Below, piece after piece: positions 1 to 28,506 of a stretch of 28,506 nt of DNA; positions within the stretch are counted from its first letter, which is position 1; each line of letters starts with the position of its first letter. Location of the stretch: positions 1 to 28,506 of the IMG/VR virus record IMGVR_UViG_3300031963_005004, one strand, 5' to 3'. The notes below the pieces were generated by a model that had not been told where the DNA came from, searched no databases, and worked only from the letters and a program-made list of their open reading frames with translations. Origin of the DNA: a virus. The position numbers and the translations under genes are program-made.

Positions 1-524
1 CCAGCGGCATTCATGCTCGCCACAGTGATTACTACATTCGCCGTGTGCGGAACGATAACAAAGACCCTATCACAGCCTTTCTACAAGGTCAGGGAGTACC
101 TTCAGAAGCGGATGTGATGAAGCCTCACGATACAACTATCTTTAGCTTTCCTATGAAGGCTCCAGACGGTTGTGTTACACGAGATGAGTTGGACTCTTTC
201 ACTCACCTTAAGTTGTGGCTAACCTATCAACGTCACTGGTGTGAGCATAAGCCCTCAGTAACTGTGTATGTCAAGGAAGCAGATTGGCCCTCAGTTGGTG
301 CTTGGGTGTGGGAACACTTTGATGAGATTAGCGGCATTAGTTTCCTACCGTGGGACGGTGGTAGCTACAAGCAAGCCCCTTATGAAGAGATTGATAAGGA
401 AACTTATTTGAAGTTGAAAGAGGCTATGCCTGTGTCTGTTGATTGGGAGACATTCCTAGAATATACAGACAACGTTGAAGGTGCTCAGCAACTAGCGTGT
501 GTCGCTGGTGTCTGTGAAATCTGA
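1..524 (+). CDS. nrdJ: Adenosylcobalamin-dependent (class II) ribonucleotide reductase, C-terminal part
   Basis: The start lies outside the window; the frame is open from base 3 and ends at TGA 522-524, giving about 173 visible residues. The first visible residues (SGIHARHSDYYIRRVR) match the C-terminal region of monomeric class II ribonucleoside-triphosphate reductases. The last residues, ending LACVAGVCEI, carry the C-x4-C pair expected as the redox-active C-terminal dithiol that re-reduces the active site. The enzyme makes deoxynucleotides from ribonucleotides using coenzyme B12 and works aerobically or anaerobically. In phages it boosts the dNTP supply for replication. A GTG at 45 would be an internal start and is not the real one. 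The gene ends inside the sigma-factor frame, so the two are probably co-translated. The assignment is from recalled family sequence, not from a search. Confidence 0.85.
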   Translation, partial: SGIHARHSDYYIRRVRNDNKDPITAFLQGQGVPSEADVMKPHDTTIFSFPMKAPDGCVTRDELDSFTHLKLWLTYQRHWCEHKPSVTVYVKEADWPSVGAWVWEHFDEISGISFLPWDGGSYKQAPYEEIDKETYLKLKEAMPVSVDWETFLEYTDNVEGAQQLACVAGVCEI

Positions 525-1026
525 AGATGAGTTACTAATAGCTGAAGCGTTAGGGGGGAGTCAGGAAGCTTTCTCCTCCCTAACAACTAAATATTGGAAG
601 CGTATATTTAGTTTCTTACGTAAGAGGGTTAACGACAATGCACTAGCAGAAGATTTAACCCAAGATACGTTTGCCGCAGCCTTTAGGTATCTCAAGACGT
701 TTCGTGGTGATAGTCAGTTCTATACTTGGCTATGTACAATTGCCATCAACAAGGCCTCTAGAAGGCCGTTTGAGAGCATAAAAACAGAAGTTGATAGTGT
801 GACTAGTGTTACCCCTGAAACCCTGTTAAATACGAAGCAAGAGTTTCACCAGTTGCTAGACATGATAGGTGATTTACCAGAAAAACAACGTAAAGCACTG
901 TATATGAAACATGCTCAAGGAATGTGCTACAATGACATTGGTGTAGCCCTTGCATGTAGTTCTAAACATGCTAAAAACTTGGTGTACAAAGCTAAGAAAA
1001 CTTTGAGGAGTAGGTATGAGCAGTAA
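499..1026 (+). CDS. ECF-family RNA polymerase sigma factor
   Basis: This 175-residue protein has the two-domain layout of group 4 (ECF) sigma factors. Region 2 spans about residues 24-90 (AFSSLTTKYWKRIFSFLRKR, then LAEDLTQDTFAAAFR and FYTWLCTIAINKASRR). Region 4 spans about 124-173, with the helix-turn-helix around residues 143-165. There is no region 1 or 3. It should bind host core RNA polymerase and direct it to specific promoters. It overlaps the end of the reductase gene. Possible starts are GTG at 499, 508 or 514, and none has a convincing Shine-Dalgarno, so translation may rely on coupling to the reductase stop at 522-524. It is the main regulator candidate in the window and sits at the end of the rightward unit, a good position for a middle-to-late switch. 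That role is inference. The family call is strong. Confidence 0.9.
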   Translation: MSLVSVKSEDELLIAEALGGSQEAFSSLTTKYWKRIFSFLRKRVNDNALAEDLTQDTFAAAFRYLKTFRGDSQFYTWLCTIAINKASRRPFESIKTEVDSVTSVTPETLLNTKQEFHQLLDMIGDLPEKQRKALYMKHAQGMCYNDIGVALACSSKHAKNLVYKAKKTLRSRYEQ

Positions 1027-7600: not shown

Positions 7601-10035
7601 AAACGTGGGTTTAGTTTACCTAATGTTAAATTCATTTTGTCTAGCTCAGCTTCGCTAATTTTACCAATGTCTTCAGTAAACGTAGGCATGTCTGCCACTT
7701 GACGGACATAGTAACCTGTAGGAGGAGCACTACGTGCTTCAACTAAATTAATTTTATTAGCTACTGATTTTTCAAGTTTAAGTAATGCTCGGTCAACGGT
7801 TGGGTTAACTACTACAGACTTATTGCCCGGAAAAATACGAATTAAATCGCCCTCTGTAGGAATAGTTTTACCGTTAACAACAATTTGCTTAGTTAAGGTT
7901 ACCTTTAATCCTTCACGAGCAATTTCTTCGTTAATACCAAACCATTCAGATAGTGCAGTATCCTTATCCCCAAAACCTAACACTTCTTTAAATGTTTTCC
8001 AAAGTTCAGATAAAAGGGTAGTGTTTTTATATTTAACACTATTAAGATAAGCTGCTACTTTAGGTAGTTGGTTAATTGACCACAAACCAGATGTTGAAAA
8101 CTCGTGTAAGTCTTTGGTTAAGTACTTTAAGTATCCTTTTAACTCAGCGTCAGCAACACTTTCAATTTTACTTGCAACAGTTGTTCGTAGTGCTTCTAGT
8201 TTAGAAACAGATTTACCTAGTGGTGTTGACGGATTTAACTTACCATAGTCAATACGGCTAGTAGTTACAGCATGAATAAGCTCATGTGTAAACACGTTAC
8301 TATTGTTATTTCCATTGTAAACAGCAATGGTATTAGTATTAGCTAAATAGTGTGCAGTACCATCACCTTGATTCACTACTACTTTAGTATTTTTAGGAAG
8401 TGTTTTTAATAGTTTGTCAACAACAAGTTGTTCTGTCGGAGTTGCTTTATCACGAATAGAAGTCCACACCTCATCAACAAGGGGTGTTGTTTTATTAGTT
8501 TTAGTTACAGTTTCAGCATATGCAGCACTACCTTCGGCTTTAGGAGCGTAGTTAAACAAGGGTAGTTTCTGTACCTCACTTACTTTAGCACCTTGACTTA
8601 AACGTGGCGCATACTTAGCTTCATCTAAAGTTTTAAACGCTGCATTAATGTCTACATTAGCAAGGTCTAGTTTATTAGCAATATCAGCAGGTGTACCACC
8701 AACAGGTACTACTTCTAAAGTACCACGCTTCCAATCTTTATAGTAGTTTAATGCTTCTTCTTCAGTTGCAAAAGGTTTTCCACTAGCATTCCCATACACT
8801 GCGTCTAAAGTAATTTTACCAGACTGCTCGTTTACATTAATAGTACTAGTAACAACTGATGGGTTATTTTTACTTGAGTAGATACGTTCTAATCTAGCTT
8901 TAGTAGCCATTAATTCTGACGGTTCTACACCACCTGAATTTAAACTTAATTCAATTTCTTTTAACGTGGTGGCTGTACGTTCACGTAGCGTAGTTTGAAT
9001 GTCTGATGACAGACCTGTAGTATCGTCAGGTACTAGTGTCTTGGTATTAATAGCAGCTTCAGCAGCTTCTCCTTTAGACACACCCAACACACTAACATCA
9101 TTGGTTAGTTTGTTAGCTACATCTACAGCAGCTTGTTCACCCATACCAATCTTGTTTGCTACATTAATGGCTTTGGTTGTAGCTAATGTAGCCCTGAATC
9201 CAGCTTTAATTAAAGCAGAAACACCTAGTGAGTCTAGTGTACCAAACACAGACTCAACACCGGGACTAAGGACTAGACCACTTTCAATAGCTTTTAAAAC
9301 ACGAAATGCGTCAGCTTCTCCTACAGCAGAAACTAAACGATTACGCCATGTGTTTACAATTTTACCCCGATCACCCTCATCAACTACACGCAACACATCT
9401 ACCATATTATTTACAGATGATGCAAACGTAATTGATCGACTTCCTTGGAAACCTAAATTTTCTAATTCTTCGTTAATAACAGGGGATAGTCGTGACCAGT
9501 CTTCTACTGTAGTTAAACCAATTGCGTCTTGTGCAAATTGTGACACAGGCCCACGTTGCGATAATCCTTCTAATGCGGTTTCAATTACAGCACGAGAAGC
9601 TAAATTAGCTTTATATAGTTGAGCATCACGCAACACTTCTTCTTTAGATTTACCTGTTTGAATCATAATGCGCTCTAATGTTGCTTCTGCAATAATAGAA
9701 ACATCATCATGGTATGATGCAGCTAAAGGAGTAGTTTCAATATCTCTAATTTGTTTAATGGCTTCTTCAACAGCCGGGGCATTACCTTGTTCTGCTAGTG
9801 GAATTGTAGCACCTTTTAAGATGCGTACATTCTCATTGCGTTCAAACTTAGCACGTTCAGCAGCAACATATGCTGGCCCCATTACAGCCATTTGTTGTGC
9901 TATGTCTTGTGACGACTGAGCATCATTAGATGCTAGTAATGTTAGTGTTGGATTAACGCTAGGAATTTGAGCATAGTTGGTAGGCTCAGCTTCTTCAAAT
10001 AAGAAATCGTCAGCTTGTTCGTTAAATAAGTCCAT
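4636..10035 (-). CDS. Giant internal virion (ejection) protein with zincin metalloprotease motif
   Basis: At 1,799 residues this is the largest protein in the window, longer than T7 gp16 (1,318). It occupies the gp16-like slot, between the gp14-like and gp15-like genes. The mid-region has HELIH at residues 584-588 (context VFTHELIHAVTTS) and LHEF with E645 about 57 residues downstream. This HExxH...E layout matches gluzincin-type domains of large phage polyvalent proteins. Upstream residues (about 555-580) form the short strands usually preceding the helix. Around residues 1285-1315 a hydrophobic stretch (MLGLFSPAQLVVQASGMLLATT) could interact with membrane. The start ATG has AGGA 5 nt upstream. 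Likely role: ejected with the genome, forming the channel. The protease part could cleave host or virion proteins; activity is inferred from the motif only. Confidence 0.7.
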   Translation of the reverse strand: MDLFNEQADDFLFEEAEPTNYAQIPSVNPTLTLLASNDAQSSQDIAQQMAVMGPAYVAAERAKFERNENVRILKGATIPLAEQGNAPAVEEAIKQIRDIETTPLAASYHDDVSIIAEATLERIMIQTGKSKEEVLRDAQLYKANLASRAVIETALEGLSQRGPVSQFAQDAIGLTTVEDWSRLSPVINEELENLGFQGSRSITFASSVNNMVDVLRVVDEGDRGKIVNTWRNRLVSAVGEADAFRVLKAIESGLVLSPGVESVFGTLDSLGVSALIKAGFRATLATTKAINVANKIGMGEQAAVDVANKLTNDVSVLGVSKGEAAEAAINTKTLVPDDTTGLSSDIQTTLRERTATTLKEIELSLNSGGVEPSELMATKARLERIYSSKNNPSVVTSTINVNEQSGKITLDAVYGNASGKPFATEEEALNYYKDWKRGTLEVVPVGGTPADIANKLDLANVDINAAFKTLDEAKYAPRLSQGAKVSEVQKLPLFNYAPKAEGSAAYAETVTKTNKTTPLVDEVWTSIRDKATPTEQLVVDKLLKTLPKNTKVVVNQGDGTAHYLANTNTIAVYNGNNNSNVFTHELIHAVTTSRIDYGKLNPSTPLGKSVSKLEALRTTVASKIESVADAELKGYLKYLTKDLHEFSTSGLWSINQLPKVAAYLNSVKYKNTTLLSELWKTFKEVLGFGDKDTALSEWFGINEEIAREGLKVTLTKQIVVNGKTIPTEGDLIRIFPGNKSVVVNPTVDRALLKLEKSVANKINLVEARSAPPTGYYVRQVADMPTFTEDIGKISEAELDKMNLTLGKLNPRLATPNSIYSPALTSMYKATKFNSLFTDFTKQSFDKLNGDSIDKVNNALIRTETLKRDMTVLELQSQGVVSAAEQEAYYAYRTMRNIQHYVKDKALSEYLTASGYNNVFVGLDELGELSGPAKSKTLNDVLNKNVYDVENNKMVTVTPDVAKELDSRGVQIYQYLKAQTIEGRKGSITTIAVAPNKSRVGDIMNTVGKVDGAYARIYTDEYWIKLKGTQLIDDVETEVTYAIRSSVTEKDASAYVKGFNSLIDKRKGGALISADDVSKALASYEQDAAKLADEFNNGKYDGTSAKFNYTRIDDNYFRDVTGVGGREAVSDGKTFWSGRSEEAIKSISTGSTAAEIKGPLASLEAEISNTARFTATNEFRRNAIQRWYNTYEDVISNIDKDNAKSADEVFFNVVKNVKGYALQEPQARRMIANKDFILAQLSTKTDDERILQHAVNNLTGNISTPGFAHVGQWLRQTDLVNWAKSTNSTFMLGLFSPAQLVVQASGMLLATTISPKHGLKAAFSIRPILAALTSDNPSVWKWLHKATEVGKTTDLSTSDFSRVAAAIKRVGLLDNIGASSIYNGADGATNIFSKNKAKFNQAQMMFFNKGEEINRVGAFEIARREFVEANPGTAWDTDSALATIVTRADDLSMNMSRVNDARYAQGTLGIPLQFLQHNIRLGTNIAAQSSILVGKKSMTLSGSEALKLTLGSYLLYGINNNATPDFIEDWLGAELNGTLSEQQKQYLTQGVLAGIISTIGETITGERTNIALGSRLSSIQWYEDLADAVYDLFKGGSVDVYKLAGPTGSTLTAALELPVIFKDYLQKDEWTLGDFSRTVSTSFATLSSTWRNIDKAYWAYHANGMVLSKRGDPLAQLSWPELLAQGLGFQSTEAYESSTVFETKSSYTSTMKKYADAVMRYENLARKAYLAGDIEAMNTNYRAASAVVAPLPLADQKVILQFTREKTRYDTVGREAFNKWASELSSHKNRLLVTNPYGEK

Positions 10036-17081: not shown

Positions 17082-17099
17082 TAGCCTTAGAGTAGGCTA
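17082..17099 (-). terminator. Small hairpin before the scaffold gene
   Basis: TAGCCT (17082-17087) pairs with AGGCTA (17094-17099) around a six-base loop. On the minus strand it is followed by ACCAATTTTTAGG, so it could be a weak terminator after the 83-aa gene or an mRNA end-protection hairpin. Too short to be sure. Confidence 0.4.
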
Positions 17100-17110
17100 A
17101 TTAAAAAATG

Positions 17111-17362
17111 TCACCTTTTAGCTGTATCTGGTAACATTGACATGATAAACTCATATGCTTTAATTTGTCCTAAGTTGTACGCTAGTTTAGCATAATGGTT
17201 AGGACAATCAAAGTCATCTTTTTTAATATTACTAATATCTTCTTTTAAAGATAATAGTGTTTTATATAAAGCTTCTAATGTATAACTACTATTATTCCAA
17301 GCTTTAATAAACTCTTCATTACTACTATCTTTAGGTTTATTATTTAATAATACTTTATTCAT
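17111..17362 (-). CDS. AT-rich small hypothetical protein (83 aa) between portal and scaffold
   Basis: An 83-residue Lys/Asn/Leu-rich helical protein (MNKVLLNNKPKDSSNEEFIK, then YTLEALYKTLLSLKEDISNI and YAKLAYNLGQIKAYEFIMSM). The family is not recognised. AAGGA sits 7 nt before the ATG. The gene and its 43-bp upstream spacer are visibly more AT-rich than the portal and scaffold genes, and a small hairpin follows it. This is the profile of an inserted 'moron' cassette with its own expression signals. A virion role is possible given its place but unsupported. Confidence 0.65.
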   Translation of the reverse strand: MNKVLLNNKPKDSSNEEFIKAWNNSSYTLEALYKTLLSLKEDISNIKKDDFDCPNHYAKLAYNLGQIKAYEFIMSMLPDTAKR

Positions 17363-25894: not shown

Positions 25895-27547
25895 TTACAC
25901 TTGGTAAGAAAGTTCAATGTACAAGTCTGCGCTGCCACTGGTGTACTTTGAAACTAAAAGTGTTGCCTGTCCTGTGGTTGTTTGCTCAAATAGACTGATG
26001 TAATCAGTTCCAGCAATTGCACGAGTAGTAATGCTACCAGTGGCTGTTGTAATTAACGCAAATGAAACAGCACCAGCCGAACGAAGGTCAGTGGTAGAAT
26101 TTACATTCCAAGGTAGTCCCCGAATAAATGTTTGATTACCAGCAGTCATACCTGTGGTGGTTATGTTTGTAAGAGAGATGGTCACAAATACTCGGTTGCC
26201 AATTCTTGTGTACAAGCCACTGGCAGTACCAATGGTTGCAACATTACCCGCTGATTGGTCATCTGCTAATATTGGGGTAAAAGTTCCAGTTTCGTAATAT
26301 CCTAGCAACTCGCTTACTAATGTTCCAGCAGTTGCTGTTCCGGGGTTTGGAAGAATAAACCCTCCCGGATAAGACCGTGGTGTATTTGCAATTTGAGAGG
26401 TGGCCCTTAATTCAGCAACGTAAGTGCGTTCACCACTGTCTACAAGACCAGTTGTAGTGCTAGACAACGAAGCAAAACCAAAAACAGTGGAGTCTAAACT
26501 TCTGGTCGTTAGATTCATCCCTAAAGTACATGCTTCTGCATAAACTTGGTGAAAACTATTTCCGTTAGAATTCAAAGTGTACAAGGTTGGATTTCCAACA
26601 ACAATGCCTGTTCCACAGCTAGAAACTTCTGGTTGGATAAATCTATTGTCGCTACCTATCCACATTGAGATGCCTTCACCAAACGAAGAAAAAACGCAGT
26701 GGTTAACTTGGTTTAGGTTAGCTCGTTGATTGTCTGTACTACCAATGGTTGTGCCGAGCCAAATACCGCTGTTAGTGTTTGAGCTACCGCCTCCATTAGC
26801 TCGGCAATGGTTGATCTGGTTGTAGTAAGGGCCAGCCACACCAGTGATGCCCTTAATCATAATTGCTGATGTGCGGTAGTTTGCGTTGTTAGTTACGCCA
26901 TCGTTGTACGTAAATGTTCCGCTACCTACGTTGGTAATAATCGCATTGTCAACAACACATGATTGAGCACCTTCTAAAAATATCCCTGCACCAGTGCAGT
27001 TGTTCATGTTGATTCGTGCATTGAAAATCTTTGCATAAAGAACAGAAGTGGTTGGGACAGTTACAGAGGGGCTGGTTGATGTGCGAATGGCAAACCCGTT
27101 TGCTGTTTGCTTAAATGTTGCATTAGCATCAAACTGAAGAATGGTGTTTGGATAAATCTTAATACTGGTTACGGCGTATGTCCCTGCATCCACATACACA
27201 GTTTTACCACTTGTAAAACATGCATCAACGGCGGCTTGAATTGCAAATGTGTCGTCTGCTACCCCATCACCCACAGCATCAAAGTCTTTAACACTCACCC
27301 TATTTAGTATTGCTAAATCTGAAAGAACTACTACTTCACCATTAAGGTAAAGTTTACTTGCATAGAATTGATCCACATTCAAAATTGAATTGTCATCCAT
27401 GTCTAGGTTGGCCAGCATGTTATTTGGGCCAGTACCATCTCGGCTGAGAGTGTTTTCAAATGCGGCTTCGATGAGGTCTGAATTATCATTCAGCGCATCA
27501 ATAGACCCATATCTACTCCCAATAGTGTTCAGTGTTAGTTTTGCCAT
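25895..27547 (-). CDS. Tail spike/fibre with pectate-lyase-like beta-helix
   Basis: A 550-residue first gene of the leftward unit. Residues 1-75 (MAKLTLNTIGSRYGSIDALN, then NNMLANLDMDDNSILN) form a virion-binding N-terminus seen in podophage fibres. From about 84, VKDFDAVGDGVADDTFAIQA is the hallmark of right-handed beta-helix pectate-lyase-like spikes, and helical rungs continue to about 390. From about 405, YYETGTFTPILADDQSAGNV then GLYTRIGNRVFVTISLTNI matches a C-terminal receptor-binding or trimerisation domain found in many fibres. It probably binds or degrades a surface polysaccharide. The ATG has AGGA about 7 nt upstream. No catalytic residues could be assigned with confidence. Confidence 0.85.
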   Translation of the reverse strand: MAKLTLNTIGSRYGSIDALNDNSDLIEAAFENTLSRDGTGPNNMLANLDMDDNSILNVDQFYASKLYLNGEVVVLSDLAILNRVSVKDFDAVGDGVADDTFAIQAAVDACFTSGKTVYVDAGTYAVTSIKIYPNTILQFDANATFKQTANGFAIRTSTSPSVTVPTTSVLYAKIFNARINMNNCTGAGIFLEGAQSCVVDNAIITNVGSGTFTYNDGVTNNANYRTSAIMIKGITGVAGPYYNQINHCRANGGGSSNTNSGIWLGTTIGSTDNQRANLNQVNHCVFSSFGEGISMWIGSDNRFIQPEVSSCGTGIVVGNPTLYTLNSNGNSFHQVYAEACTLGMNLTTRSLDSTVFGFASLSSTTTGLVDSGERTYVAELRATSQIANTPRSYPGGFILPNPGTATAGTLVSELLGYYETGTFTPILADDQSAGNVATIGTASGLYTRIGNRVFVTISLTNITTTGMTAGNQTFIRGLPWNVNSTTDLRSAGAVSFALITTATGSITTRAIAGTDYISLFEQTTTGQATLLVSKYTSGSADLYIELSYQV

Positions 27548-27571: not shown

Positions 27572-27615
27572 TAATGTACCCGCAAAGGGGTGATAGTTAG
27601 TTAATGAGATGCTTA

Positions 27616-27638
27616 GACCTTATATATATACAAAGGTC
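27616..27638. repeat. Hairpin GACCTT/AAGGTC with AT-only loop
   Basis: GACCTT (27616-27621) pairs with AAGGTC (27633-27638) around an 11-base loop of almost pure TA. It lies in the leader of the leftward unit. No T-tract follows on either strand, so a terminator is unlikely; an operator or a leader RNA structure is more plausible. Confidence 0.4.
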
Positions 27639-27771
27639 ATCATATTGAGTAATTTACGTAAACGCATTTAAACGAGTTTTACGGCGTTTTGTGGCTGTTA
27701 GGCTACTACCCCCTTACCTACCCCCTAAAAAGCTGTTAAAACCCTTTTAAAATCAATTTAAACACGATAGT

Positions 27772-27895: not shown

Positions 27896-27943
27896 TATAT
27901 ATTTATATAAGTATATATTTATATAAGAATATAATTATATAAG
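27896..27943. repeat. Three tandem 16-bp AT iterons
   Basis: Two exact copies of TATATATTTATATAAG lie at 27896-27911 and 27912-27927, followed by AATATAATTATATAAG at 27928-27943, which keeps the TATATAAG end. A more degenerate unit follows to 27959. The only regular G marks each 16-bp step. Tandem iterons at the edge of an AT-rich stretch are typical of replication origins. Confidence 0.65.
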
Positions 27944-27974
27944 CATATATTAATATATATACTATAGTATTATA

Positions 27975-28024
27975 TATATATAGTATATTATTACTTTAGT
28001 ATTACATGTATATATAGTATATTA
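27975..28024. repeat. Pair of identical 16-bp AT elements
   Basis: TATATATAGTATATTA occurs at 27975-27990 and again at 28009-28024, 34 bp apart (about three helical turns). It is distinct from the tandem iterons just to the left. It may be a protein-binding site within the origin-like region, although low sequence complexity lowers certainty. Confidence 0.45.
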
Positions 28025-28308
28025 GTATATAACAGTTTATATATTATATATACCCCCATATTATATATTATTAATAGTTAATATATTATATATTATTATA
28101 TATATCAAGTATTTACCTATTATTTATATATTATTACTAGTAATATTATATTGAATATACCTATAATATATTGATAATAATTGAATACATACGTACTACA
28201 CTACTTACCCTCTATATATAGGGGCGTTTTAGGTACGTACTAAGGTACTCATAATGGCTCTTATAGGGTTTCCAGCCTACCCAACTAATCATTAAGTATT
28301 CATTTTAG

Positions 28309-28341
28309 TTGTAAGGTTCGTGTAAGTATTCTGTAGATAAT
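28309..28341 (+). promoter_or_regulatory. Early promoter 1: 18-bp direct-repeat box plus -10
   Basis: TTGTAAGGTTCGTGTAAG at 28309-28326 contains two TGTAAG half-sites 11 bp apart. Nine bases later GATAAT (28336-28341), followed by GG, is the -10 element. No TTGACA-like -35 is found 16-18 bp upstream of the -10; the direct repeats occupy that space. This is the geometry of promoters activated by OmpR/PhoB-family regulators. It points rightward. Confidence 0.65.
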
Positions 28342-28359
28342 GGAGGGCAACCAAGCGGC

Positions 28360-28375
28360 GTTGCAGTAATGCAAC
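28360..28375 (+). ncRNA. GTAA-tetraloop hairpin in early leader 1
   Basis: GTTGCA (28360-28365) and TGCAAC (28370-28375) pair perfectly around GTAA, a GNRA-type tetraloop. It lies in the transcribed leader from promoter 1, preceded by AAGCGG and followed by CAAAT and the next promoter box. It is not followed by a T run, so it is probably not a terminator. It is an RNA structural element, not shown to be a separate RNA gene. Confidence 0.5.
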
Positions 28376-28380
28376 AAATC

Positions 28381-28413
28381 TTGTAAGTTTCGTGTAAGGT
28401 TGACGTGTATAAT
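28381..28413 (+). promoter_or_regulatory. Early promoter 2: same box with consensus -10
   Basis: TTGTAAGTTTCGTGTAAG at 28381-28398 differs from copy 1 at one base. Exactly nine bases later lies TATAAT (28408-28413), followed by GG. The TTGACG at 28400-28405 is only two bases from the -10 and cannot be its -35. Identical geometry to promoter 1 strongly supports function. Confidence 0.75.
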
Positions 28414-28418
28414 GGAAA

Positions 28419-28471
28419 GCATACGATGCAAGGTGTGATCGGACACTAAGCGGGTGTTGTGAAAAGACAAC
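28419..28471 (+). ncRNA. Three-hairpin leader between promoters 2 and 3
   Basis: Downstream of promoter 2, GCAT/ATGC (28419-28429), GTGT/ACAC (28433-28446) and GTTGT/ACAAC (28456-28471) can fold in a row. The last one is preceded by AAGCGG and followed by CAAAT, like the hairpin after promoter 1. Conserved RNA structures right after early promoters could act in antitermination or RNA stability; this is inferred from structure only. Confidence 0.45.
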
Positions 28472-28480
28472 AAATGTTCT

Positions 28481-28506
28481 TTGTAAGTTTCATGTAAGCT
28501 TCGCAT
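28481..28506 (+). promoter_or_regulatory. Early promoter 3 box, cut by the window end
   Basis: TTGTAAGTTTCATGTAAG at 28481-28498 is the third copy (one change from copy 2). Only eight bases remain before the window ends, so the expected -10 at about 28508 cannot be seen. Confidence 0.55.

Follow-up and report, generated by a model that had tools for sequence, protein, structure and literature searches.

The DNA analysed here (the window) is a linear fragment of 28,506 bases from the IMG/VR collection, ending at position 28506. Sequence comparison identifies it as part of a cobavirus-like podovirus (Zobellviridae relatives). Its terminase is 51–57% identical to those of the cobavirus-like podoviruses Celeribacter P12053L and Lentibacter ICBM1, the Methylophilales phages MEP401/402 and a spring-water phage, and the opposed structural and replication operons and the CobT/CobS-like genes agree with this placement, the latter being putative and read off the translations of relatives only. 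The structural genes run leftward from 27547, opening with a tail fibre-like gene of 550 aa (25895..27547, minus strand), an arrangement kept in relatives. At the left end of the window, genes for a ribonucleotide reductase and for an ECF-type sigma factor with Sigma70_r2 and r4_2 domains (499..1026, plus strand) end a rightward operon; the sigma factor is also present in five further records of the same group (group A). The gap between the divergent operons holds an array of direct repeats oriented rightward, immediately preceded by a terminator-like hairpin with a T-rich tail (28209..28224, plus strand; one found against 0.5 expected). Part of this gap (27900–28199) has an A+T content of 84–91%, possibly representing a replication origin, and a similar AT-rich stretch is seen in MW202697 (L016, around 9400–9700).

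The array consists of three 18-bp boxes, TTGTAAG-N4-RTGTAAG, starting at 28309, 28381 and 28481, exactly as reported in a preliminary description of this DNA. Box 1 (TTGTAAGGTTCGTGTAAG, 28309..28326, plus strand), an element also found in relatives, comprises two half-sites 11 bp apart and is the proposed binding site of a host response regulator. It is followed after 9 nt by the −10 hexamer GATAAT (28336..28341, plus strand), and box 2 (TTGTAAGTTTCGTGTAAG, 28381..28398, plus strand) is followed at the same distance by TATAAT (28408..28413, plus strand), so that both complete copies have the 9-nt spacing to a KATAAT-type −10 noted earlier. The −10 of box 3 (TTGTAAGTTTCATGTAAG, 28481..28498, plus strand) falls past the contig end; in the relatives L004, L006, L008 and L010 this box continues as cttcgcatg-TAAAAT, i.e. 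again with N9. The full box-to-−10 pattern has two exact matches in the window, compared to a chance mean of 0.33 even when up to three mismatches are allowed. The repeat unit is longer than first noted, approximately TGTAAG(G/T)TT(C/G)R, and GTT is frequently repeated after the second half-site. The leaders following the two complete promoters (28349–28380 and 28421–28480) each end in a small hairpin right before the next box, with stems GUUGCA-UGCAAC and GUUGU-ACAAC, which are only modestly more stable than shuffled sequences (z −1.9 and −1.5).

A normal −35 element had been described as missing, and a sigma-70 consensus scan of the window indeed returned no promoter using GATAAT at 28336–28341 or TATAAT at 28408–28413. 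The sole sigma-70 candidate offered near the boxes, TTGACG-N16-TACGAT, overlaps promoter 2 and was rejected since it is absent from the other copies. A functional −35 hexamer is absent both from the copies in the window and from the consensus of all box promoters.

In the close relatives L004, L005, L008, L010, L012, L013 and L028, the corresponding gap contains one to four boxes, with tandem copies kept at this locus. Downstream of the boxes, these relatives encode a conserved 170-aa ORF followed by ORFs reading as CobT/CobS-like. The relatives, rather than the window itself, thus support the placement of the array before the early operon, in line with the original proposal that it precedes the first genes. 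No box was found in the cultured or complete relatives MEP401/402, Alcaligenes phage QDWS535, MW202697 and MW202796, and BLAST searches of phage isolates, with the intergenic region and with the promoter as queries, gave nothing useful.

Next, the promoter was searched for across viral contigs. A scan for box plus −10 matched 11 contigs and a looser version 45, while the box alone (TTGTAAGNTTSRTGTAAG) was found in at least 119 contigs against 26 for a reversed control pattern. From these, a set of 78 non-redundant boxes was selected without reference to the −10, some of them originating from the earlier scans. As the −10 played no part in this selection, it provides the fairer test of spacing. 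Of the hexamers with at most one mismatch to TATAAT, 16 lie at N9 and seven at N10, against zero to two at every other offset from 0 to 49; at up to two mismatches, the counts are 19 for N9 and 32 for N10, against a background of about four. A direct scan gave the same picture, with box-N9/10-KATAAT in 36 viral contigs and box-N11/12 in none. The N9 spacing predicted to be conserved is therefore retained, and N10 is permitted as well. Among the N9 promoters, 18 of 19 have an A 8 nt after the −10, mostly as CA, and this initiator is conserved 7–8 nt past the −10. On this basis, transcription is predicted to start at A28349 and A28421 in the window. Judged from these sequences, the box defines a promoter class and is not a local repeat or a peculiarity of the lineage of the window. 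In one viral contig of 57% GC (L096, 860–1000), copies of the box on opposite strands lie a short distance apart, and more TGTAAGGTT-type half-sites are found nearby.

The layout of these promoters is that of an OmpR/PhoB-family site in place of the −35: direct half-sites with a period of about 11 bp, a fixed distance of about 10 nt to a sigma-70 −10 (N9 or N10 only) and no functional −35. The response-regulator type of site suggested in the preliminary description is thus supported by both the 11-bp repeat and the spacing. A location between about −38 and −22 would suit a repressor as well, and the boxes might be operators overlapping the −35 region. This is highly improbable, because the consensus lacks a usable −35, so that the promoter would be weak even when unrepressed, and the spacing is confined to 9 or 10 nt, as for an activator contacting the polymerase.

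An ECF promoter had been considered less likely from the start, and this judgement holds. Some ECF −35 elements read TGTAAC, and since the phage encodes an ECF sigma factor, the boxes could be −35 elements for this or another ECF sigma. Yet the half-sites lie 9–10 and 20–21 nt from a −10 of the sigma-70 type, where an ECF promoter has its −35 about 15–17 nt from the −10, and the box promoter is also present in phages in which no sigma gene was found. An ECF reading of the boxes was also rejected because it does not hold across the copies. In addition, a better ECF-like motif, TGACMTTT-N14-TCTAAG, precedes the structural genes. One copy, TGACCTTT-N14-TCTAAG (27612..27639, minus strand; conserved in relatives), is located upstream of the tail-fibre gene, and a second, TGACATTT-N14-TCTAAG (17086..17113, minus strand; in G003, G008 and G009), upstream of the scaffold and capsid genes; both are candidate late promoters. 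One or both places keep the motif in G002, G003, G008 and G009, and G014 has the variant TAACATTT with ACTAAG; the reversed control gave only rare matches in the 14 records searched. From its sequence and position, TGACMTTT-N14-TCTAAG is likely the late promoter of the phage's own ECF sigma, and together they form a candidate phage-encoded switch to late transcription. Because the sigma factor appears to have this promoter of its own, the early boxes are unlikely to be its target, and the ECF explanation as a whole is extremely improbable.

The box promoter is shared by at least four unrelated phage groups. Besides the relatives of the window, it is found in another podovirus-like group (L007, L011, L020 and L045), in T5-like phages (L019 and L049) whose terminase is about 47% identical to that of Vibrio phages with genomes of 112–118 kb, in L048, which is related to Alcaligenes phage QDWS535 (58%), and in the L085 group, of which the primase resembles those of Pelagibacter phages HTVC103P/115P. 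A protein comparison of the sequences from these groups identified no gene common to all and no shared regulator; the matches identified between groups were the terminase, the ribonucleotide reductase and an HNH-like protein. The OmpR-type DNA-binding domain (Trans_reg_C) was found in none of 28 phage records, most of them fragments. As unrelated phages have the promoter in common but no regulator, the simplest account is that the regulator is encoded by the host. The preliminary description had left open a host or a phage activator, and this is now narrowed to the host. The alternative is an activator of a non-OmpR fold, encoded by the phage or carried in the virion, which binds the repeat in the manner of lambda CII. 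CII binds TTGC-N6-TTGC, and activators of this type also use direct repeats flanking the −35; moreover, most phage records are fragments, so that the gene for a differently folded activator may have escaped detection. Such an activator is nonetheless unlikely, given a promoter common to at least four unrelated groups that have no regulator gene in common, and given that an early promoter has to act ahead of phage gene expression.

To compare the box with known regulator sites, the E. coli pstS and arnB sites were read from the K-12 sequence. At pstS (CTGTCATAAAACTGTCAT-N10-TATAAC), the layout is TGTCAT-N5-TGTCAT-N10-TATAAC, with half-sites 11 bp apart replacing the −35 as in the phage box. The PmrA/BasR box YTTAAK-N5-YTTAAK at arnB (half-site CTTAAGGTT; CTTAAG-N5-GTTAAT-N10-TAAAAT) is likewise an 11-bp direct repeat, but the second base of its half-site is T (CTTAAG) where the phage has G (TGTAAG). 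N9 is common in the phage promoters, whereas both E. coli sites have N10, one base longer. The Pho-like comparison made initially is therefore borne out for the geometry and not for PhoB as the candidate: the window has TTGTAAG and RTGTAAG instead of the Pho regulon half-site CTGTCAT, and TGTCAT at pstS differs from TGTAAG(G/T) in two of six bases. It follows that PhoB itself, which would make early transcription responsive to phosphate, is decidedly unlikely as the regulator, despite the 11-bp repeat and near-equal −10 distance at pstS and although host PhoB control is established for cyanophage genes (PMC10976474).

A closer match is offered by MisR of the beta-proteobacterium Neisseria, part of the CpxR/CpxA-like MisR/MisS system, for which a single 15-bp consensus, KWWWTGTAARGNNWH, with the core TGTAARG has been published (PMC7286886). 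Base for base, the phage half-site TGTAAG(G/T) is closer to this core than to the PhoB half-site TGTCAT. TGTAAGG fits the core, while many phage half-sites carry a T at the last position (TGTAAGT) and fall outside it. The flanking W positions of the consensus, which is Neisserial whereas the phage host may be unrelated, are only partly matched by the phage boxes. A difference in layout is seen at gonococcal ompA, where the main MisR site lies upstream of the −35 hexamer, whereas the phage box replaces the −35. A search of open-access papers for a description of the 18-bp box gave the MisR consensus as the sole match; the papers in which TGTAAG or TGTAAGGTT appears were unrelated. A CpxR/MisR-like regulator would, as a guess from these half-sites, be a better choice than PhoB. 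A cultured phage of Alcaligenes is related to one of the box-bearing phages; this ties the box only weakly to a beta-proteobacterial host, as the Alcaligenes phage itself has no box. The most specific guess at the regulator would accordingly be a CpxR/MisR-like protein of such a host.

When 84,980 species genomes were scanned with a strict pattern, the exact box followed by N9–10 and TATAAT, 13 sites were found. Every site belongs to Bacillota and has N10 as in E. coli; with only Bacillota matched, no host candidate is named. Several of the 13 sites precede ABC-transporter operons, and at several the same 8-kb stretch also contains a regulator-like ORF. All four regulators tested, three genomic and one from viral contig L031, have a receiver (Response_reg) and a Trans_reg_C domain. 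From this gene neighbourhood, the box is plausibly used by an OmpR-type regulator at the Clostridial loci. Five Clostridial ABC-transporter operons (L060, L061, L063, L066 and L068) have the exact TTGTAAG-N4-RTGTAAG-N10-TATAAT promoter in common, and in each the gene for an ATP-binding protein precedes a large permease-like ORF; OmpR-type regulator genes lie near three of them (L060, L061 and L068).

The tandem promoters are thus probably sigma-70 early promoters activated by a host response regulator of the OmpR/PhoB family that takes the place of the −35, the binder being deduced from the geometry and the Clostridial loci. The box, its spacing, the −10, the initiator and the position before the early operon are visible in the sequences compared, and we infer that the binder activates rather than represses. 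In the proposed mechanism, the host's main (sigma-70) RNA polymerase would transcribe the early promoters, with the boxes as their upstream half. Two regulator subunits in head-to-tail orientation would occupy the TGTAAG(G/T)TT half-sites, one at about −38 to −33 and the other at about −27 to −22, and the bound regulator would replace the −35 element and contact sigma region 4. The polymerase would then melt the −10 and start at the A of the conserved CA about 8 nt on. Tandem copies might raise the output or buffer against mutation, and the late genes would subsequently pass to the phage's own ECF sigma. A more specific version, which is possible but doubtful, is that the activator is a host envelope-stress regulator of the CpxR/MisR type, of which the phosphorylation is raised by phage adsorption and DNA entry. 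An alarm for membrane damage would then trigger the early genes, an arrangement that many phage groups with hosts of one kind would have evolved independently. Early transcription may be tuned to host stress, as suggested initially.

Phage early promoters are usually regarded as strong and independent of activators. Host control of phage genes by this regulator family does have a precedent: cyanophage genes, including the DNA polymerase gene, are under host PhoB control, and host-regulator sites have been demonstrated by gel shift in Synechococcus phage S-PM2d (PMC10976474). S-PM2d and the pstS gene of Prochlorococcus phage P-SSM2 thus have host OmpR/PhoB-family sites on phage genes, as proposed here. 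In the cyanophages, individual genes are induced under phosphate starvation and the boxes are variable and hard to predict, whereas the phages described here have another half-site at a rigid distance (N9 or N10) from the −10, before early operons, often in tandem and in several unrelated groups. What seems new compared to cyanophage PhoB control is therefore the rigid early-operon promoter with its other half-site in several unrelated groups, though the literature search covered open-access papers only and a prior description is possible. Should these unrelated phages share an early promoter that lacks a −35 and depends on a host response regulator, as appears to be the case, the onset of infection would be coupled to the sensory state of the host. 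If the regulator senses stress or nutrients, as it seems to, the physiological state of the host could set the speed at which infection starts. TTGTAAG-N-TT-S-R-TGTAAG could also serve as a sequence tag by which many uncultured phages are assigned to a common host group or regulator.
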